Positions 28,407-35,804 of a stretch of DNA of 35,804 bases are shown here, one piece after another. A program made the position numbers and the translations under genes. The first letter of the stretch is position 1. Each line of letters opens with the position of its first letter. The notes below the pieces were generated by a model that was not told the origin of the DNA, searched no databases, and saw only the letters and a program-made list of their open reading frames with translations. The stretch is from Alienimonas chondri (lineage in GTDB: Bacteria > Planctomycetota > Planctomycetia > Planctomycetales > Planctomycetaceae): assembly GCF_013036045.1 (NCBI RefSeq), contig NZ_WTPX01000036.1:1-35804 (forward strand), written 5' to 3'.

Positions 28407-29042
28407 CTAACGGGGCAGATGCGGGGCGAGCATCTTCCGCACGTATTTCCCGAGGATATCGGCTTCGAGGTTCACGTGGTCGCCGACGGTGCGGTCGCCG
28501 AGCGTCGTTTCGCTCAAGGTGTGCGGGATGAGGGCGACGAAGAACCCGGCCCCGTGCGGTTCGCAGACGGTCAGGCTGACGCCGTCGACGCAGACGCTGC
28601 CCTTGTCCACCAGCAGTTCGGCGATCGCGGGGGGCACGTCGAAGTGCATGTGCAGCCACTCGCCGTCGCGCTCGAGCTTCGCCACCGTCCCCGCCGCGTC
28701 GACATGGCCCTGCACGACGTGGCCGCCGAGCCGATCGCCGGCCCGCAGGGCGCGTTCGACGTTCACCCGCCCGCCGGTTTCCAGCCGGCCCAGATTCGTG
28801 CGGGCGAGCGTTTCGGCGCCGGCCTCGAAGGTCCACCGATCGCCCGGAGCGTCTCCGTCGGCGATCTCCACGACCGTCAGGCAGCAGCCGTTGAGGGCGA
28901 CGCTGTCGCCGAGCTTCACGTCCCCGGCGAGCGGTTCGCCGCGACCGTTCTCGGCCGGCAGGGCGAGGGTCAGGCTTACGTCCGAACCGCGCCGTTCCAG
29001 CAAATGGACGACGGCTTGGGCTTCGACGAGGCCGGTAAACAT
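28407..29042 (-). CDS. ribE: Riboflavin synthase alpha chain
   Basis: RibE dismutates two 6,7-dimethyl-8-ribityllumazine molecules to riboflavin and a pyrimidine product in the cytoplasm. At 211 residues it has the family's length and duplicated lumazine-binding fold. The first half starts with the invariant MFTGLVE and contains SVALNGCCLTVVE. The second starts at about residue 100 with GGHVVQGHVDAAG and contains SVCVDGVSLTV. The C-terminus is LEADILGKYVRKML. No other riboflavin genes are nearby and no FMN riboswitch is visible upstream, although the 146-base divergent region up to 29188 must carry the promoter. It may be first in the minus-strand block that continues with rsmA. Confidence 0.96.
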   Translation of the reverse strand: MFTGLVEAQAVVHLLERRGSDVSLTLALPAENGRGEPLAGDVKLGDSVALNGCCLTVVEIADGDAPGDRWTFEAGAETLARTNLGRLETGGRVNVERALRAGDRLGGHVVQGHVDAAGTVAKLERDGEWLHMHFDVPPAIAELLVDKGSVCVDGVSLTVCEPHGAGFFVALIPHTLSETTLGDRTVGDHVNLEADILGKYVRKMLAPHLPR

Positions 29043-29141
29043 GGAATCGGGCGGGGCCGCCGCAGCGGCATCAGGATCAAACCGCCAGTGTGCCGGTCGA
29101 TCCGGGGGCCGTCAACGGGCGGCGCCGACACGGTTCGGGCC

Positions 29142-29148
29142 GTACGAT
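29142..29148 (+). promoter_or_regulatory. GTASGAT box upstream of tandem gene 1
   Basis: GTACGAT lies 41 bases before the GTG start. GTAGGAT occurs at 30112-30118 and 31153-31159 at similar distances before tandem genes 2 and 3. The TASGAT part could serve as a -10 element; no clear -35 partner is seen. Confidence 0.3.
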
Positions 29149-29174
29149 TTGGGCGGTCTGTTCAACGACGAGTT

Positions 29175-29180
29175 GGGAGG
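29175..29180 (+). promoter_or_regulatory. Shine-Dalgarno GGGAGG deciding the GTG start at 29189
   Basis: GGGAGG ends eight bases before the GTG at 29189. It is one of the few clear ribosome-binding sites in the window and supports this start over the earlier in-frame candidates from 29090. Confidence 0.6.
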
Positions 29181-29188
29181 TTCCCACC

Positions 29189-30115
29189 GTGCCCCGTGCG
29201 TTCGGCGTACTCCGTAACCTTGCCCGCGTGTGCTATGTGCTGGCGACGCCCGCCGCTGTCATGCTCGCCGGGCTGGGATTGGCGTTCGCTGCGGCGCCGC
29301 CGTACGACTTCGCCCGAGAAGATCCACGTCACCTTTGGAGCGTTTGGGAAGGGAGTAACGGCAGAGACAGCCTGAATTCGATCTCTGCCGAACGGGTTCT
29401 CGACACGCCGTGGCAGTGCCGACGACTCCGCCTGTTTTGGAGCACAGAAGCTGGGCCCGCCGGCTCCGCAGAAGCGTTCGATTGGGAACCGGCGCCCGGG
29501 CTGTTCTTAATGCGCCATGGCTACGGCGACCGTGAGTCTTCCGAGTACGGAGATGTCCTGTTCGCCGCGGTTGGAGGGCAATGGTTAGTAGCGTGGGTCG
29601 TTCCCCTGACCGTGGTCTGGATCGTGTGGGCGTGGAAGACAGGCCGGTTCGCTGTGCGAGACACTGACCGTCCTCCTGTGGCCTGGCGCGGGGCGGTGCG
29701 GCCGTGGGTCGCCGGTCCGGCGGCGCTGGGGGCGCTCTGTTTAGCGGTCCCGTTCGATGGGTTCGCCCGCGACGAAGACCGTTTTGCGGCCGAGGTCCGC
29801 CGAGACCCTTACGTTTCATGGCACCCACGGGCGTTGTGGATCGCGTGGGAGACCGACTGGTTTGAGCCGACCACTTCCTCCGATCAGTCACCCACCGCGC
29901 CGTTGTTCGGCAGTCGGCGGTGGGGCGTGACGGCCGAACGGTCTATAGCGAAACCATCCTTCACCAACATATGGTTCTACGACGATGCCGTGACGCAGTG
30001 CCGATGGACGGCCGCTATCAGCCTGTGGTGGCTCGCGGCGCCGTTAGCGTTGTGGAGCGGCGGCAGTCTGTGGCGGTCGAGCCGCGTTCCCACTTCTGCG
30101 GAAGCGACGGCGTAG
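29189..30115 (+). CDS. Membrane protein of unknown family, tandem paralogue 1
   Basis: This 308-residue protein has about four transmembrane segments: an N-terminal helix (about 15-38), WLVAWVVPLTVVWIVWAW in the middle, an adjacent helix (PWVAGPAALGALCLAV) and a C-terminal helix (AISLWWLAAPLALW). Between helices 1 and 2 is a variable extracytoplasmic loop containing WEPAPG. Between helices 3 and 4 is a conserved motif AEVRRDPYVSWHPRALWIAWE. I recognise no known family. Two further paralogues follow immediately. This copy is the least GC-rich of the three, and its loops differ most, hinting at an older or separately evolving copy. It has a clear Shine-Dalgarno and is divergent from ribE. Confidence 0.72.
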   Translation: MPRAFGVLRNLARVCYVLATPAAVMLAGLGLAFAAAPPYDFAREDPRHLWSVWEGSNGRDSLNSISAERVLDTPWQCRRLRLFWSTEAGPAGSAEAFDWEPAPGLFLMRHGYGDRESSEYGDVLFAAVGGQWLVAWVVPLTVVWIVWAWKTGRFAVRDTDRPPVAWRGAVRPWVAGPAALGALCLAVPFDGFARDEDRFAAEVRRDPYVSWHPRALWIAWETDWFEPTTSSDQSPTAPLFGSRRWGVTAERSIAKPSFTNIWFYDDAVTQCRWTAAISLWWLAAPLALWSGGSLWRSSRVPTSAEATA

Positions 30116-30118
30116 GAT
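30112..30118 (+). promoter_or_regulatory. GTAGGAT box upstream of tandem gene 2
   Basis: The heptamer begins 38 bases before the ATG at 30150 and contains the stop codon (TAG) of tandem gene 1. It matches the boxes before genes 1 and 3. Confidence 0.3.
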
Positions 30119-30149
30119 AGTCACCCCCTGCATCACTGCGAGAACCGCC

Positions 30150-31118
30150 ATGTTCGCCCTCTTTCGATCGCTCAACCGGGCGGGCGGCGTGCTGTGGACG
30201 CTGCTGTTGCCGGCGACCGTGTTGCTGGCGGCGCTGGGGGCCGCGTTCGTGATCGCTCCGCCGGTCTCCTTTCGAGAGGACGCCGGCGAACGCATGCAAA
30301 GCGTCGTCCCCCGCGTCGATCGGGAGAGCGATCAACTGCGGATCTCGGCCTCCCTCGATGCCGCGGACACGACCTTCCCCCAGTTCCTCGAAGTCTCGCT
30401 GATGCGCCGGGTCCGGCCGTCTCCCGTGAATACCGTGCTCACGGAATGGGAGCCGGCGCCGGGAGTCCGCTACGTCGCGCGCCTCTTGCAGGGACGGCAG
30501 ATTCGCATGCTGAAGATCAACGTGGGCTGGATCGTCGGGTGGGCGCTCGGGCTGAGTCTGCTGTGGTGGGGGTGGGCCGCTTCGACGGGGCGGTTCGCCC
30601 GATCGCTGGACGACCGCTCGCTGAACGACGGCTCGCTGGATCACGGGGGGCAACGAACCGGCCGCTGGACGGCGCTGCGACGGGCGGCGCGGCCTTGGCT
30701 CGCGGGGTTTGCGCTGGTCGGGGGGCTGTGCCTGCTCGCCCCGTACGGCTCCGGCTGGGAGGACCACTCTTTGAAGGCCGAGGTTCGCCGCGATCCGCAC
30801 ACCCCGCTGCACCCGCGCGTGCTGTGGGTCGCATGGGAACGGGACAATCCGTCGGCGCCTCCGCAGGGCACGCCCCTGTTCTGGGCCCACGGCAGCGCCC
30901 CCGCGGAGCCGCTGTGGTTCGCTCGGGAATGGGGCCTGCGGGTGGAGAAGGCCCGCATCGCCCCGCCGATGGGCTGCTCCGACCGCGACGCCTCCCGCGG
31001 CGGGCGCCCACGGATCGCGGCGGCGATCAGCCTGTGGTGGTTGGCGGCCCCGTTGGCGCTGTGGAGCGCTGGCAGCCTATGGAATTCGCGATCCACGTTC
31101 TCGGCCCCCAAAGGCTGA
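30150..31118 (+). CDS. Membrane protein of unknown family, tandem paralogue 2
   Basis: This 322-residue protein has the same layout as its neighbours: N-terminal helix (LWTLLLPATVLLAALGAAF), extracytoplasmic loop with WEPAPG, second helix (IVGWALGLSLLWWGWA) followed by STGRFAR, third helix (PWLAGFALVGGLCLLAP), the motif AEVRRDPHTPLHPRVLWVAWE, and C-terminal helix AAISLWWLAAPLALWSAG. A short S/L/D/N repeat (RSLDDRSLNDGSLDHGG) sits between helices 2 and 3. It starts 34 bases after gene 1 ends. No enzymatic or binding motif is recognised. The strong conservation of the HPRxLWxAWE motif among the copies suggests it is functionally important. Confidence 0.75.
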   Translation: MFALFRSLNRAGGVLWTLLLPATVLLAALGAAFVIAPPVSFREDAGERMQSVVPRVDRESDQLRISASLDAADTTFPQFLEVSLMRRVRPSPVNTVLTEWEPAPGVRYVARLLQGRQIRMLKINVGWIVGWALGLSLLWWGWAASTGRFARSLDDRSLNDGSLDHGGQRTGRWTALRRAARPWLAGFALVGGLCLLAPYGSGWEDHSLKAEVRRDPHTPLHPRVLWVAWERDNPSAPPQGTPLFWAHGSAPAEPLWFAREWGLRVEKARIAPPMGCSDRDASRGGRPRIAAAISLWWLAAPLALWSAGSLWNSRSTFSAPKG

Positions 31119-31152
31119 GCAGCCCCGGGAAGTCGTCCCCGGACGCGGGCAT

Positions 31153-31159
31153 GTAGGAT
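31153..31159 (+). promoter_or_regulatory. GTAGGAT box upstream of tandem gene 3
   Basis: The heptamer begins 47 bases before the ATG at 31200. It matches the boxes before tandem genes 1 and 2, while the rest of the spacer sequences differ. Confidence 0.3.
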
Positions 31160-31199
31160 TGAGGGGTCGCTATTCGGTCGCGTCTCCGCAGGAACCGTC

Positions 31200-32123
31200 A
31201 TGGTCGCTCCGCTTCGCACGCTGCTTCGGGCCGGCGGTGCGCTGTCGGTCCTGTCCCTGCCGGCGATCGTCGTGCTGGCGACGCTGGGAGCGGGCTTCGC
31301 GGCGGCGCCGGAGATCCGATTTCTACACGACGACCCGCTCCGGCTGATGAGCACGGGCTTCGACAGCGACGAACACCGCACGCCCGTAACGGTTGCGGTG
31401 CGACGGACGTTTCCAGAGCCGCTTCACCGACATTCGATTTGGGTCCGCCGGACCGTTCCCGTCGAGCCGTCCGCCTCGGACGCGGGCGAAGGGTGGGGGC
31501 CGGCGCCGTGGTTCGCGGCGTACCAATCCTGGGAGGAGGCCCGCCGCCTGCCGGACGGGACGACGGAGGGTCCGACGCGGACCACGTTGGCGACCGCGAG
31601 CGTCGGCGGGCTGCTGATCTGGGTCGCCGGGCTGACGGCGCTGTGGCTGCCGTGGGCGTGGCGGACGGGGCGGTTCGCCCGGCTGGAAGCTCCGTCGTTC
31701 GGTCGGCGGGCGGCACTGGGGCGAGCGCTCCGCCCGTGGGTCGGCGGGCTGGCGGGGCTGGGGGCGCTCTGCCTCGCGGGAGGGCCGCCCGAACCGAGGG
31801 GCGACGACCGCACGGTCATGGCCGAGGTTCGCCGCGACGACCACGTCTCGCTTCACCCCCGGGCGCTGTGGGTCGCGTGGGAAACAGAGGCCCCGCCGCA
31901 CGGCGGCGGGGCCGCCCGCACGCCGTTCGGCGGACGGGATTGGGGCGTAACGGTCGAGCGGACCGCGACCCTGTGGGGCTTCGCCGGACGATCGGGCCGC
32001 GATCAGGCGATCGGTCGGCGGCGGTGGACGGCGGCGATCAGTCTGACGTGGCTCGCCGCGGCGGCGGGGCTGTGGTCCGCGGTCAGCCTGTGGCGGTCCC
32101 GGCGAGCCGGGCCGGACACCTGA
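31200..32123 (+). CDS. Membrane protein of unknown family, tandem paralogue 3
   Basis: This 307-residue protein is the third copy of the four-helix family. Helix 1 is SVLSLPAIVVLATLGAGF. The loop contains WGPAPW in place of WEPAPG. Helix 2 (LIWVAGLTALWLPWAW) is followed by RTGRFAR, helix 3 is PWVGGLAGLGALCLA, and the conserved segment is AEVRRDDHVSLHPRALWVAWE. Helix 4 (AAISLTWLAAAAGLW) is the least conserved. A weak AGGA lies six bases before the ATG. The gene ends just before a perfect palindrome that separates it from the convergent nucleoside hydrolase gene. Function is unknown. Confidence 0.75.
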   Translation: MVAPLRTLLRAGGALSVLSLPAIVVLATLGAGFAAAPEIRFLHDDPLRLMSTGFDSDEHRTPVTVAVRRTFPEPLHRHSIWVRRTVPVEPSASDAGEGWGPAPWFAAYQSWEEARRLPDGTTEGPTRTTLATASVGGLLIWVAGLTALWLPWAWRTGRFARLEAPSFGRRAALGRALRPWVGGLAGLGALCLAGGPPEPRGDDRTVMAEVRRDDHVSLHPRALWVAWETEAPPHGGGAARTPFGGRDWGVTVERTATLWGFAGRSGRDQAIGRRRWTAAISLTWLAAAAGLWSAVSLWRSRRAGPDT

Positions 32124-33336: not shown

Positions 33337-35367
33337 TCAGGCGTCGCGGCTGTCGAAGTGCGGAAAGGTGCAGACCACCCGCGTGCCGCCGCTGTCCGGC
33401 GATTCAAACCGCAGTTGTCCATAGACCGCCTGGGCGCGGAACTGCATCGCGGACAGGCCGATGCCCGCATCCGGATTCTCGGCGGCCTGCTCCGCATCAA
33501 AGCCGACGCCGTCGTCGGCGATGATCAGAAAGGCGCGGTCGGGGCCGTCGTTCGCGAGCGTCACGTGAACATGCTTGGCCTTCCCGTGCCGAACCGCGTT
33601 GCTGAGCGCCTCTTGGGCGATGCGGTACAGATGGTGGGCGACGCCGGGATCGTCCACCGCGACGGGGCCGTCCGGCGTGAGGAGCTCGCAATGGGCGGCG
33701 GTGATTTCCGTGGTGAGGTTCGCCAGCCGACTCAATCCCTCCGCCAGCCCGCCGCGATCCGGGTCCAGCGGCATCAACCCATGAGCGACGCCCCGCAGAT
33801 CGCGGGCGGCGCCCTGGACGGCGTCGGCGATGCTGTCCACCACCTCCGTCACGTCCTCCCCCTCCTCCGCCTGCAACTTCAACATCCCGCACAGCATATT
33901 CAACCCGGCCAATTGCTGGGCGACGCCGTCGTGCAGATCGCGGGCGATGCGGGCCTGCTCCCGAGTTTGGGCGGAGAGCACCTGTGATTCCAACTCCCGC
34001 CGGCCTCTTAAATCGCGGAGCGTCGCGGCGTAGTGGGTGGGCGTTCCGTCCTCGCCGCGAATTGCGGAGACGTCCCACTCCACCACCAGCGACGTGCCGT
34101 CGGCCTGTTGAATCGCCGCTTCTCCGTGGTATTTCCCCTCCTGTTTCAGCGCTTGCCGCATCCGTGCCGGGGCGTCCGGGTCGGTGCGGGGGCCGTTCAA
34201 TGCGGTCAATAATTCGCCGGTCAACTCTTCCGCACTACGTCCCGCCAACGCCGCCGCCGCCGGGTTGGCGTAAAGAATGTAGGGGCCGGGCGGATCGACG
34301 TCGGGACTGAGGATCAGGGTCGGTACGTCCGTCTGCTGCACGGCCGACCGCATCAGCAGACGTTCCGCCTCGAGAACGTCGAACTCCGTCAGATCCTCGG
34401 CGGTGTAACAGAACCGCTGCGGGCCTTCACGACGGGAATCGACGGAGACCGCCGAGACCGCCAGGTGCCGCCGTTCCCCATGCACCAGCTGATCCAACCG
34501 GGTTCTCAACGGCTCGGCGCCGGCCTCGCCGGAGGCGATTTGATCGAACGCTTCGTTGAGCCAGTCCGTCAGCGGCGCCGGCACGCCGAGATCGCCGAGC
34601 GATCGGCCCACGCAACGCTTCACCATCTCGTCGGGACTCAGGCCGGGGTCCACGTTTCGCAGCAGCAACCGCGCCGCCGACGGATTGACGCGCAGATGTC
34701 GGACGGTTCCGTCGTCGGTCCGTTCGACCAGCGACAACGCGACGGGGCTGGAGGCGAAGGTGGCGTTGAGAGACGCTTCGCTGCCGCGGAGCCGTTCGAT
34801 TAGTAACTCGCGCTCGGTGACGTCGTTCTGCACCCCGACGAAAAAACGCGACTTGCCGTTCGTCTCCTCCACCGGGGACAGATACAGTTCGTTGCGAAAT
34901 TCCGTCCCGTCCTTCTTGAAATTCCGCAGCATCAACCGGACATATTGTTCGCTGCGAATCGCCTCGCGCATCTCCGCGCGGTTGTTTTCGTTGCCCGTCT
35001 CGATCCGCACGCCGTCCTTGAATTGCAGGAAGCGACAATCGCGATCGAGGATTTCCTCCGGTTCGTAGCCGGTGAATTCGCAAAAATACCGATTGACGTA
35101 GATCAGCGGCGTCTCCCCGTCCTCGCGCTTTTCCGAGAGCGTGATCATCGTGTTCGCCGCGTTGATGACCGTGGACAACAACGCACCGCGGTCCGCTTCG
35201 GAGACCGTCTCCGACCAGTACCCCTGCTCCGAATTCTTCAGCCGCTTGCCGTCGCGAATGGAAGAATCGTGCCCCGGCTCGTTCGCCCGGGGATCGACGT
35301 CCCGACTGTTCAGGCTCCGCTGAACGAACTCCGTGTCCGTTTGACTGATCGGGTTGTGTTCTCGCAT
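33337..35367 (-). CDS. LOV-PAS-PAS sensor histidine kinase (HisKA_3 type)
   Basis: This sensor kinase has 676 residues from ATG 35367; ATG 35394 and 35439 are alternatives, and no Shine-Dalgarno decides. It has no transmembrane segments, so it is cytoplasmic. Residues about 62-186 form a LOV-type PAS domain with C111 in DCRFLQ, Q115, N149, N159 and Q180. About 195-330 is a second PAS-like domain. About 340-460 is a third, with LOV-like framework (NGPRTDPDAP) but no cysteine. The dimerisation/phosphoacceptor helix (REQARIARDLHDGVAQQL, H479) is of the NarX/DegS-type HisKA_3. The ATPase domain has N590 (QEALSNAVRHG), DDGVGFD and GIGLSAMQFR. It should phosphorylate a LuxR/NarL-type response regulator, but none is in the window. 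The C-terminal arrangement is complete. Confidence 0.92.
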   Translation of the reverse strand: MREHNPISQTDTEFVQRSLNSRDVDPRANEPGHDSSIRDGKRLKNSEQGYWSETVSEADRGALLSTVINAANTMITLSEKREDGETPLIYVNRYFCEFTGYEPEEILDRDCRFLQFKDGVRIETGNENNRAEMREAIRSEQYVRLMLRNFKKDGTEFRNELYLSPVEETNGKSRFFVGVQNDVTERELLIERLRGSEASLNATFASSPVALSLVERTDDGTVRHLRVNPSAARLLLRNVDPGLSPDEMVKRCVGRSLGDLGVPAPLTDWLNEAFDQIASGEAGAEPLRTRLDQLVHGERRHLAVSAVSVDSRREGPQRFCYTAEDLTEFDVLEAERLLMRSAVQQTDVPTLILSPDVDPPGPYILYANPAAAALAGRSAEELTGELLTALNGPRTDPDAPARMRQALKQEGKYHGEAAIQQADGTSLVVEWDVSAIRGEDGTPTHYAATLRDLRGRRELESQVLSAQTREQARIARDLHDGVAQQLAGLNMLCGMLKLQAEEGEDVTEVVDSIADAVQGAARDLRGVAHGLMPLDPDRGGLAEGLSRLANLTTEITAAHCELLTPDGPVAVDDPGVAHHLYRIAQEALSNAVRHGKAKHVHVTLANDGPDRAFLIIADDGVGFDAEQAAENPDAGIGLSAMQFRAQAVYGQLRFESPDSGGTRVVCTFPHFDSRDA
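34810..35184 (-). other. LOV photosensory domain within the histidine kinase
   Basis: Key residues are C111 (codon 35035-35037), Q115, N149, N159 and Q180. The distances N149-N159 (10) and N159-Q180 (21) equal those between the flavin-contacting N482, N492 and Q513 of oat phototropin LOV2. The residue before the cysteine is D instead of the usual N, and the loop between the cysteine and N149 is six residues longer than in phototropin. Flavin binding and blue-light response are inferred. Confidence 0.75.
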
Positions 35368-35629
35368 GGCTTGGGGCGGGTCAAGCGCGGCCATGACAGA
35401 CGTGCGGCGCGATAAGGGCGGGGGAATAGCGAAATTCATGGGGGCGGCGACCCCGACCGACCCATGGGGGGCAATCCCGGGCGCAACCCTAGCGATCGTA
35501 TCCCTCCGATCCGGGGCGGCAACAGGCGGCGTCCCTCCGCTCAACTCGCCCCGCCCCCGGGTGTCCGACAGCCCGGGAGACACTTATTCTGACCGCGGCC
35601 CCCTACCGCTTCAACGCCGACTGCGCTGG

Positions 35630-35804
35630 ATGCCGATGACTTCGCTCGCTTCCGCCGCTCGTCGATCGACGCCGCTCGCGGGGATTCTGGCGGGCGTGGG
35701 ACTGTGCGTGGCGTCCATCGGCGCCGTGCCCGTCGGCGCCGCTCCGCCGCCGTTTCTCCCGCCGCCGGCGCCGATGGACGCCACGCACAGTCCCACGCCC
35801 GCCA
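35630..35804 (+). CDS. Partial secreted protein, 3' end outside the window
   Basis: The open frame from ATG 35630 (or ATG 35636) stays open for 58 codons to the last base. It begins with a convincing signal peptide: MPMTSLASAARRSTPLAG with a basic n-region, a hydrophobic core (GILAGVGLCVASIGAV) and a likely cleavage after GAA. The following residues are proline-rich (APPPFLPPPAP). It is divergent from the histidine kinase gene. The last 39 bases are the reverse complement of bases within the signal peptide, so the C-terminal part of this fragment may not be genuine. Confidence 0.5.
   Translation, partial: MPMTSLASAARRSTPLAGILAGVGLCVASIGAVPVGAAPPPFLPPPAPMDATHSPTPA
35688..35804. repeat. Perfect 39-bp inverted repeat ending at the last base
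   Basis: Bases 35688-35726 are the exact reverse complement of 35766-35804, separated by 39 bases. The left arm lies in signal-peptide coding sequence. The right arm ends exactly at the window's final base, so it could be longer. This is either a real hairpin or a fold-back assembly artefact. Confidence 0.85.

Follow-up and report, generated by a model that had tools for sequence, protein, structure and literature searches.

A probable blue-light-sensing LOV histidine kinase with an extended E-F loop in Alienimonas chondri

The histidine kinase gene and its surroundings

The window, i.e. the whole stretch of 35,804 nucleotides analysed here, comes from Alienimonas chondri (LzC2), which was isolated from the red alga Chondrus crispus and belongs, like the compared A. 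californiensis strain CA12, to the Planctomycetaceae. Its minus strand carries an open reading frame of 748 codons with a GTG start, in which the Pfam models gave the domain order LOV-PAS-PAS-HisKA_3-HATPase_c. The following features were located:

33337..35583, minus strand: open reading frame of the LOV-PAS-PAS-HisKA_3-HATPase_c histidine kinase (GTG, 748 aa)
34810..35184, minus strand: LOV domain (PAS_9, NCBIfam YtvA family, BluLightHisKinLov, PDB LOV proteins, AlphaFold2 and Foldseek)
34399..34782, minus strand, limits approximate: putative second PAS-like domain (Pfam PAS_4, which matches three stretches of the protein)
33997..34278, minus strand: third PAS domain (Pfam PAS/PAS_4/PAS_3, residues 436-529)
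33769..33960, minus strand: HisKA_3 dimerisation/phosphoacceptor domain, with the His codon at 33931-33933 in HDGVAQ (Pfam 4.3e-13)
33361..33642, minus strand: HATPase_c ATP-binding domain, with the N box EALSNAVRHG and the G boxes DDGVGF and GIGL (Pfam 1.4e-12)

Translation probably starts at or near the ATG at 35367 (Met73 of the long frame), since the resulting product of 676 aa is close to the 674 aa of the A. californiensis ortholog; residues 1-72 of the long frame have no good counterpart there. The residue numbers of the pocket (C111, N149 etc.) are counted from this ATG, as in the sequence-only reading that preceded this work; the LOV domain thus covers residues 134-258 of the long frame, or 62-186 from Met73. 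A membrane segment was not evident anywhere in the protein (the highest 19-residue Kyte-Doolittle mean was 0.91), and the promoter and terminator scans gave no signal exceeding chance.

The H, N and G boxes of the kinase are intact, and HDGVAQ fits the HDxxxQ motif, which is required for the phosphatase activity of HisKA_3 kinases (PMC6798134). The sequence-only reading had predicted a light-regulated two-component system. Its kinase part holds; in A. californiensis no response regulator gene was found adjoining the kinase, which lies between a nucleoside-hydrolase-like gene and a divergent gene for a PQQ-repeat protein, and the A. chondri contig ends just upstream, 221 bases from the start of the open reading frame. 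Since no response regulator adjoins the gene, the two-component system is only half demonstrated. Six LuxR-type HTH matches were obtained elsewhere in the A. chondri genome.

Some further observations concern the neighbouring sequence. At its end the contig carries the two 39-nt arms of a perfect inverted repeat (35688-35726 and 35766-35804), separated by 39 nt and suggestive of an assembly break or a fold-back. Three consecutive open reading frames of 307-341 aa at 29090-32123, with AAPLALWSGGSLWRS-like ends and W-rich membrane-like segments, had no Pfam match and are apparently members of one tandem family; at the equivalent place in A. californiensis, the ORF map leaves little space for them. 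A riboflavin synthase-like (Lum_binding) gene is located at 28407-29042, approx. 4 kb from the LOV kinase, and since other genes intervene, no functional link is implied.

The LOV domain and its flavin pocket

The LOV stretch was recognised by Pfam PAS_9 at 1.7e-29 and by the NCBIfam YtvA-family and blue-light histidine kinase models at 2.3e-38 and 9.1e-39, the latter two matches being below the whole-protein cut-offs because the remainder of the protein differs. Comparison with LOV profiles had been proposed by the sequence-only reading as a check on its claim of a LOV domain attached to a histidine kinase, and the claim was borne out by these profiles, by every other sequence test that could be run, by the fold search and by the intact kinase. 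PDB LOV proteins matched at 1e-22, with the Pseudomonas short LOV proteins, YF1 and YtvA at the top, and the bacterial LOV search pattern [NS]-x(2)-[FPGHSA]-x(4)-[GEQR]-x(9,11)-C (PMC4844311) occurs in the domain as NRYFCEFTGYEPEEILDRDC.

An AlphaFold2 model was built from residues 118-285 of the open reading frame together with 14 related sequences. The model (mean pLDDT 84.6, pTM 0.77) had LOV topology, with the helix and strand order of the LOV core, flanked by an A'-alpha and a J-alpha helix. When it was submitted to Foldseek, the best 50 matches were all LOV photoreceptors, and chimeric LOV kinases matched too; W619_1-, PpSB2-, SBW25- and PpSB1-LOV were the leaders, with E-values of about 1e-14 to 1e-13, and the top LOV matches had TM values of 0.7-0.78 by query length. 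A chance motif is ruled out by the E-values, the fold and the conservation in the ortholog; the first domain is indeed of the LOV type. The residues of its pocket and the neighbouring loop were assigned as follows:

35035..35037, minus strand: codon of the photoreactive Cys C111 in the motif LDRDCRFLQ, where it follows an Asp, as in PpSB1- and SBW25-LOV
34981..35022, minus strand: extended E-alpha/F-alpha loop FKDGVRIETGNENN, with six residues more than phototropin LOV2; its length is the same in the ortholog, and 36 other LOV domains lack the extension
34978..34980, minus strand: codon of R130, equivalent by alignment to the FMN-phosphate-binding Arg66 of PpSB1-LOV (PMC6047819), at the position of AsLOV2 V463
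34921..34923, minus strand: codon of N149 (AsLOV2 N482, by alignment)
34894..34896, minus strand: codon of R158, replacing the near-invariant H-beta Trp (AsLOV2 W491; count over 38 LOV domains)
34891..34893, minus strand: codon of N159 (AsLOV2 N492, by alignment)
34828..34830, minus strand: codon of Q180 (AsLOV2 Q513, which flips on adduct formation; by alignment)

The Cys in DCRFLQ and the flavin-contacting Asn and Gln residues C111, N149, N159 and Q180 were found where the sequence-only reading had put them, and so was the spacing of phototropin LOV2 which it had noted, N149-N159-Q180 and AsLOV2 N482-N492-Q513 both showing distances of 10 and 21. L114 and Q115 of FLQ align with AsLOV2 L453 and Q454, the phosphate-side R112 and R134 with R451 and R467, and R130 is additional, as in PpSB1. 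Apart from R130, all eight of these (C, R, L, Q, R, N, N, Q) are identical in the alignment with AsLOV2, VVD, PpSB1- and SBW25-LOV. With the Cys and the other pocket residues conserved, the domain is likely to be photoactive.

The Asp in front of C111 had been regarded as an oddity. It is indeed present, but PpSB1- and SBW25-LOV carry it too, so that it was rejected as a novelty and, both of these proteins being photoactive, was not counted against photoactivity either. Two further peculiarities had been missed, R130 as the match of PpSB1 Arg66 and R158 in the place of the H-beta Trp. In PpSB1-LOV the R66I exchange shortens dark recovery from 2471 min to 23 min, i.e. makes it 100-fold faster (PMC6047819). 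Since R130 aligns with this Arg, dark recovery is probably slow, with a light state lasting hours and not seconds or minutes, a prediction drawn from one aligned Arg in proteins of differing loop length. Concerning R158, a Trp of SB2F1 (W94) contacts the D-V-T hinge motif (PMC13322254). Both the Trp-to-Arg change and the longer loop are located where they could affect the choice of flavin or the signalling.

The accumulation of such changes (Asp for Gly and for Asn ahead of the Cys, Phe for Gly behind FLQ, the longer loop, Arg for Trp) could be taken as the mark of a degenerate LOV domain, which lost its flavin and was kept as a dimerisation module. We consider this extremely improbable, as photoactive PpSB1-LOV also has Asp before its Cys and a changed Gly position (YQDCRFLQ), the contacts to the flavin ring are kept, and the ortholog is under purifying selection.

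The extended loop and the sister species

The distance between C111 and N149 is 38 residues versus 32 in LOV2, in agreement with the six-residue extension reported in the sequence-only reading. At the same E-F loop site 11 extra residues are present in VVD, nine in ZTL and six in the A. chondri protein. The loop was originally named the FAD insertion loop, its purpose has been called elusive, and in the VVD crystal structures it touches the FAD adenine (PMC6396943). A natural FAD chromophore, with the adenine held by the loop as in VVD and WC-1, would leave the protein the same light receptor, and these crystals, together with the location of the Alienimonas loop at the VVD insertion site and its opening with the same DG step (FLQFKDGV vs FLQSPDGM), speak for it. 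We find this doubtful nevertheless: the insertion has six residues and not 11, the Arg cluster for the FMN phosphate is present, the nearest folds are FMN proteins, and FMN only was found in ZTL with its nine-residue insert, in FKF1, in LKP2 and in some fungal VVD homologues (PMC6396943; PMC5370183). Since these proteins bind FMN in spite of the loop, FMN is predicted as the most likely flavin and a better guess than FAD, and a fungal-type FAD domain was dropped as the leading interpretation.

The A. californiensis ortholog retains every oddity of the A. chondri LOV domain, which is the best conserved part of the protein (77-79% identity, as compared with 71-73% for the other domains). Over 665 codons the substitutions at codon positions 1, 2 and 3 numbered 132, 103 and 260; this concentration at the third position indicates that the reading frame is under purifying selection. 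No ortholog beyond A. californiensis was found in the family search of 170 genomes or in the phylum search of 392 genomes. The named-genome scan gave two matches that were not real relatives and did not have the LOV cysteine motif, and a phylum-wide DNA pattern for (N/D)CRFLQ returned mostly frames that were not LOV. Two haloarchaeal plasmid matches with a longer alignment have a standard loop, the additional length preceding the domain.

In order to place these features, 38 LOV domains from planctomycete and viral-collection contigs were compared, and a second set of 38 included a haloarchaeal LOV; the sample is limited, weighted toward relatives of the A. chondri gene and no gauge of rarity across bacteria. 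In the first set Asn precedes the Cys in 36 of the 38 domains and Asp in the two Alienimonas orthologs only, while Cys and Asn are 31-33 residues apart in 35 of 38 and 38 residues apart solely in the same two. In the second set the H-beta position is occupied by W (34/38), Y (2/38) or R (2/38, both Alienimonas orthologs), and these two are also the only domains with an Arg at the PpSB1-66 position. The six-residue extension thus appears uncommon within this 38-domain sample. The viral collection contained 18 contigs (L088-L105) with LOV-like domains, some of them 40-500 kb long.

A paralog in A. californiensis (L041:7849-9741) is a LOV-PAS-HisKA_3 kinase, the LOV domain of which is 47% identical and has a loop extended by four residues; its counterpart was not detected in the A. 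chondri assembly, where one LOV domain was detected. The intermediate length of this loop suggests that lengthening may have occurred stepwise within Alienimonas. A third LOV domain of A. californiensis lies inside an open reading frame of 1426 codons (L042).

Conservation also bears on the possibility that the LOV-like PAS domain binds flavin and senses redox or another ligand, with light acting on the kinase as a side effect or not at all. Other inputs are conceivable, since no ligand is known for the second and third PAS domains, and the sheet is altered on its output face by the exchange of Trp for Arg. However, the photoreactive Cys and the Gln would be needless for redox sensing alone, yet they are kept in both species, and no other part of the protein is as well conserved as the LOV domain. 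This explanation is accordingly judged very unlikely.

Proposed function and relation to known LOV systems

We conclude, with a probability of about 0.9, that the A. chondri protein is a cytosolic, flavin-binding and probably slow-cycling LOV histidine kinase that serves as a blue-light receptor, most likely with FMN. There is little doubt that it belongs to a usual type of bacterial blue-light sensor, and its flavin pocket deviates slightly from the norm. From the behaviour of known families we infer the events that would connect light to the kinase. The LOV domain would bind flavin, most likely FMN, and blue light would bond Cys111 to the flavin C4a, after which Q180 would flip. The signal would pass from the sheet through the D-V-T hinge and the J-alpha helix to the two later PAS domains and then to the HisKA_3 dimer, which could thereby switch between kinase and phosphatase states. 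The predicted target is a NarL-type response regulator encoded elsewhere. A more specific and speculative proposal, which is unlikely, is that the loop extension, of intermediate length, the PpSB1-type Arg cluster and the H-beta Arg arose jointly in Alienimonas and produced a light switch, FAD-capable or very slow (hours to days), that might report the daily light dose and not the light of each moment via a DesK/NarX-type kinase.

According to a full-text literature search, planctomycete light sensing is little studied. Both Alienimonas type strains are culturable and come from seaweed or kelp settings, so a light phenotype is testable. Natural variants of the loop and the pocket bear on the role of the LOV E-F loop, an open question (PMC6396943), and on the determinants of adduct lifetime.

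Among solved structures, the short LOV proteins of Pseudomonas, PpSB1-, PpSB2-, SBW25- and W619_1-LOV (PDB 3sw1, 5j3w, 7a6p, 7yx0, 5luv), come nearest in both sequence and fold. Their A'-alpha helix, core and J-alpha are similar to those of the Alienimonas domain, PpSB1- and SBW25-LOV share DCRFLQ with Asp before the Cys, and Arg66 of PpSB1-LOV is the equivalent of R130; they differ in having no effector, whereas the Alienimonas domain has the longer loop (+6) and an Arg at the position of the H-beta Trp. Coupling of LOV to a dimeric histidine kinase is found also in Brucella LOV-HK, LovK, the engineered YF1 and SB2F1. In Brucella LOV-HK a PAS domain likewise stands between LOV and the kinase, but the kinase is of the HWE type; that of YF1 is HisKA, while the Alienimonas protein has HisKA_3 and two PAS domains. 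YtvA of Bacillus subtilis, a LOV-STAS protein, is related through the LOV family match, in which Alienimonas scored 132 against the NCBIfam equivalog cut-off of 250 bits; the output of YtvA is STAS and not a kinase. VVD, WC-1 and ZTL/FKF1 carry an E-F insertion at the same site of the domain, but they are eukaryotic and have other outputs. The LOV-PAS-HisKA_3 paralog of A. californiensis has the same kinase type and a similar layout to the A. chondri kinase, and differs from it in NCRFLQ with Asn, in the kept Trp and, as read from the sequence, in having one PAS domain fewer.
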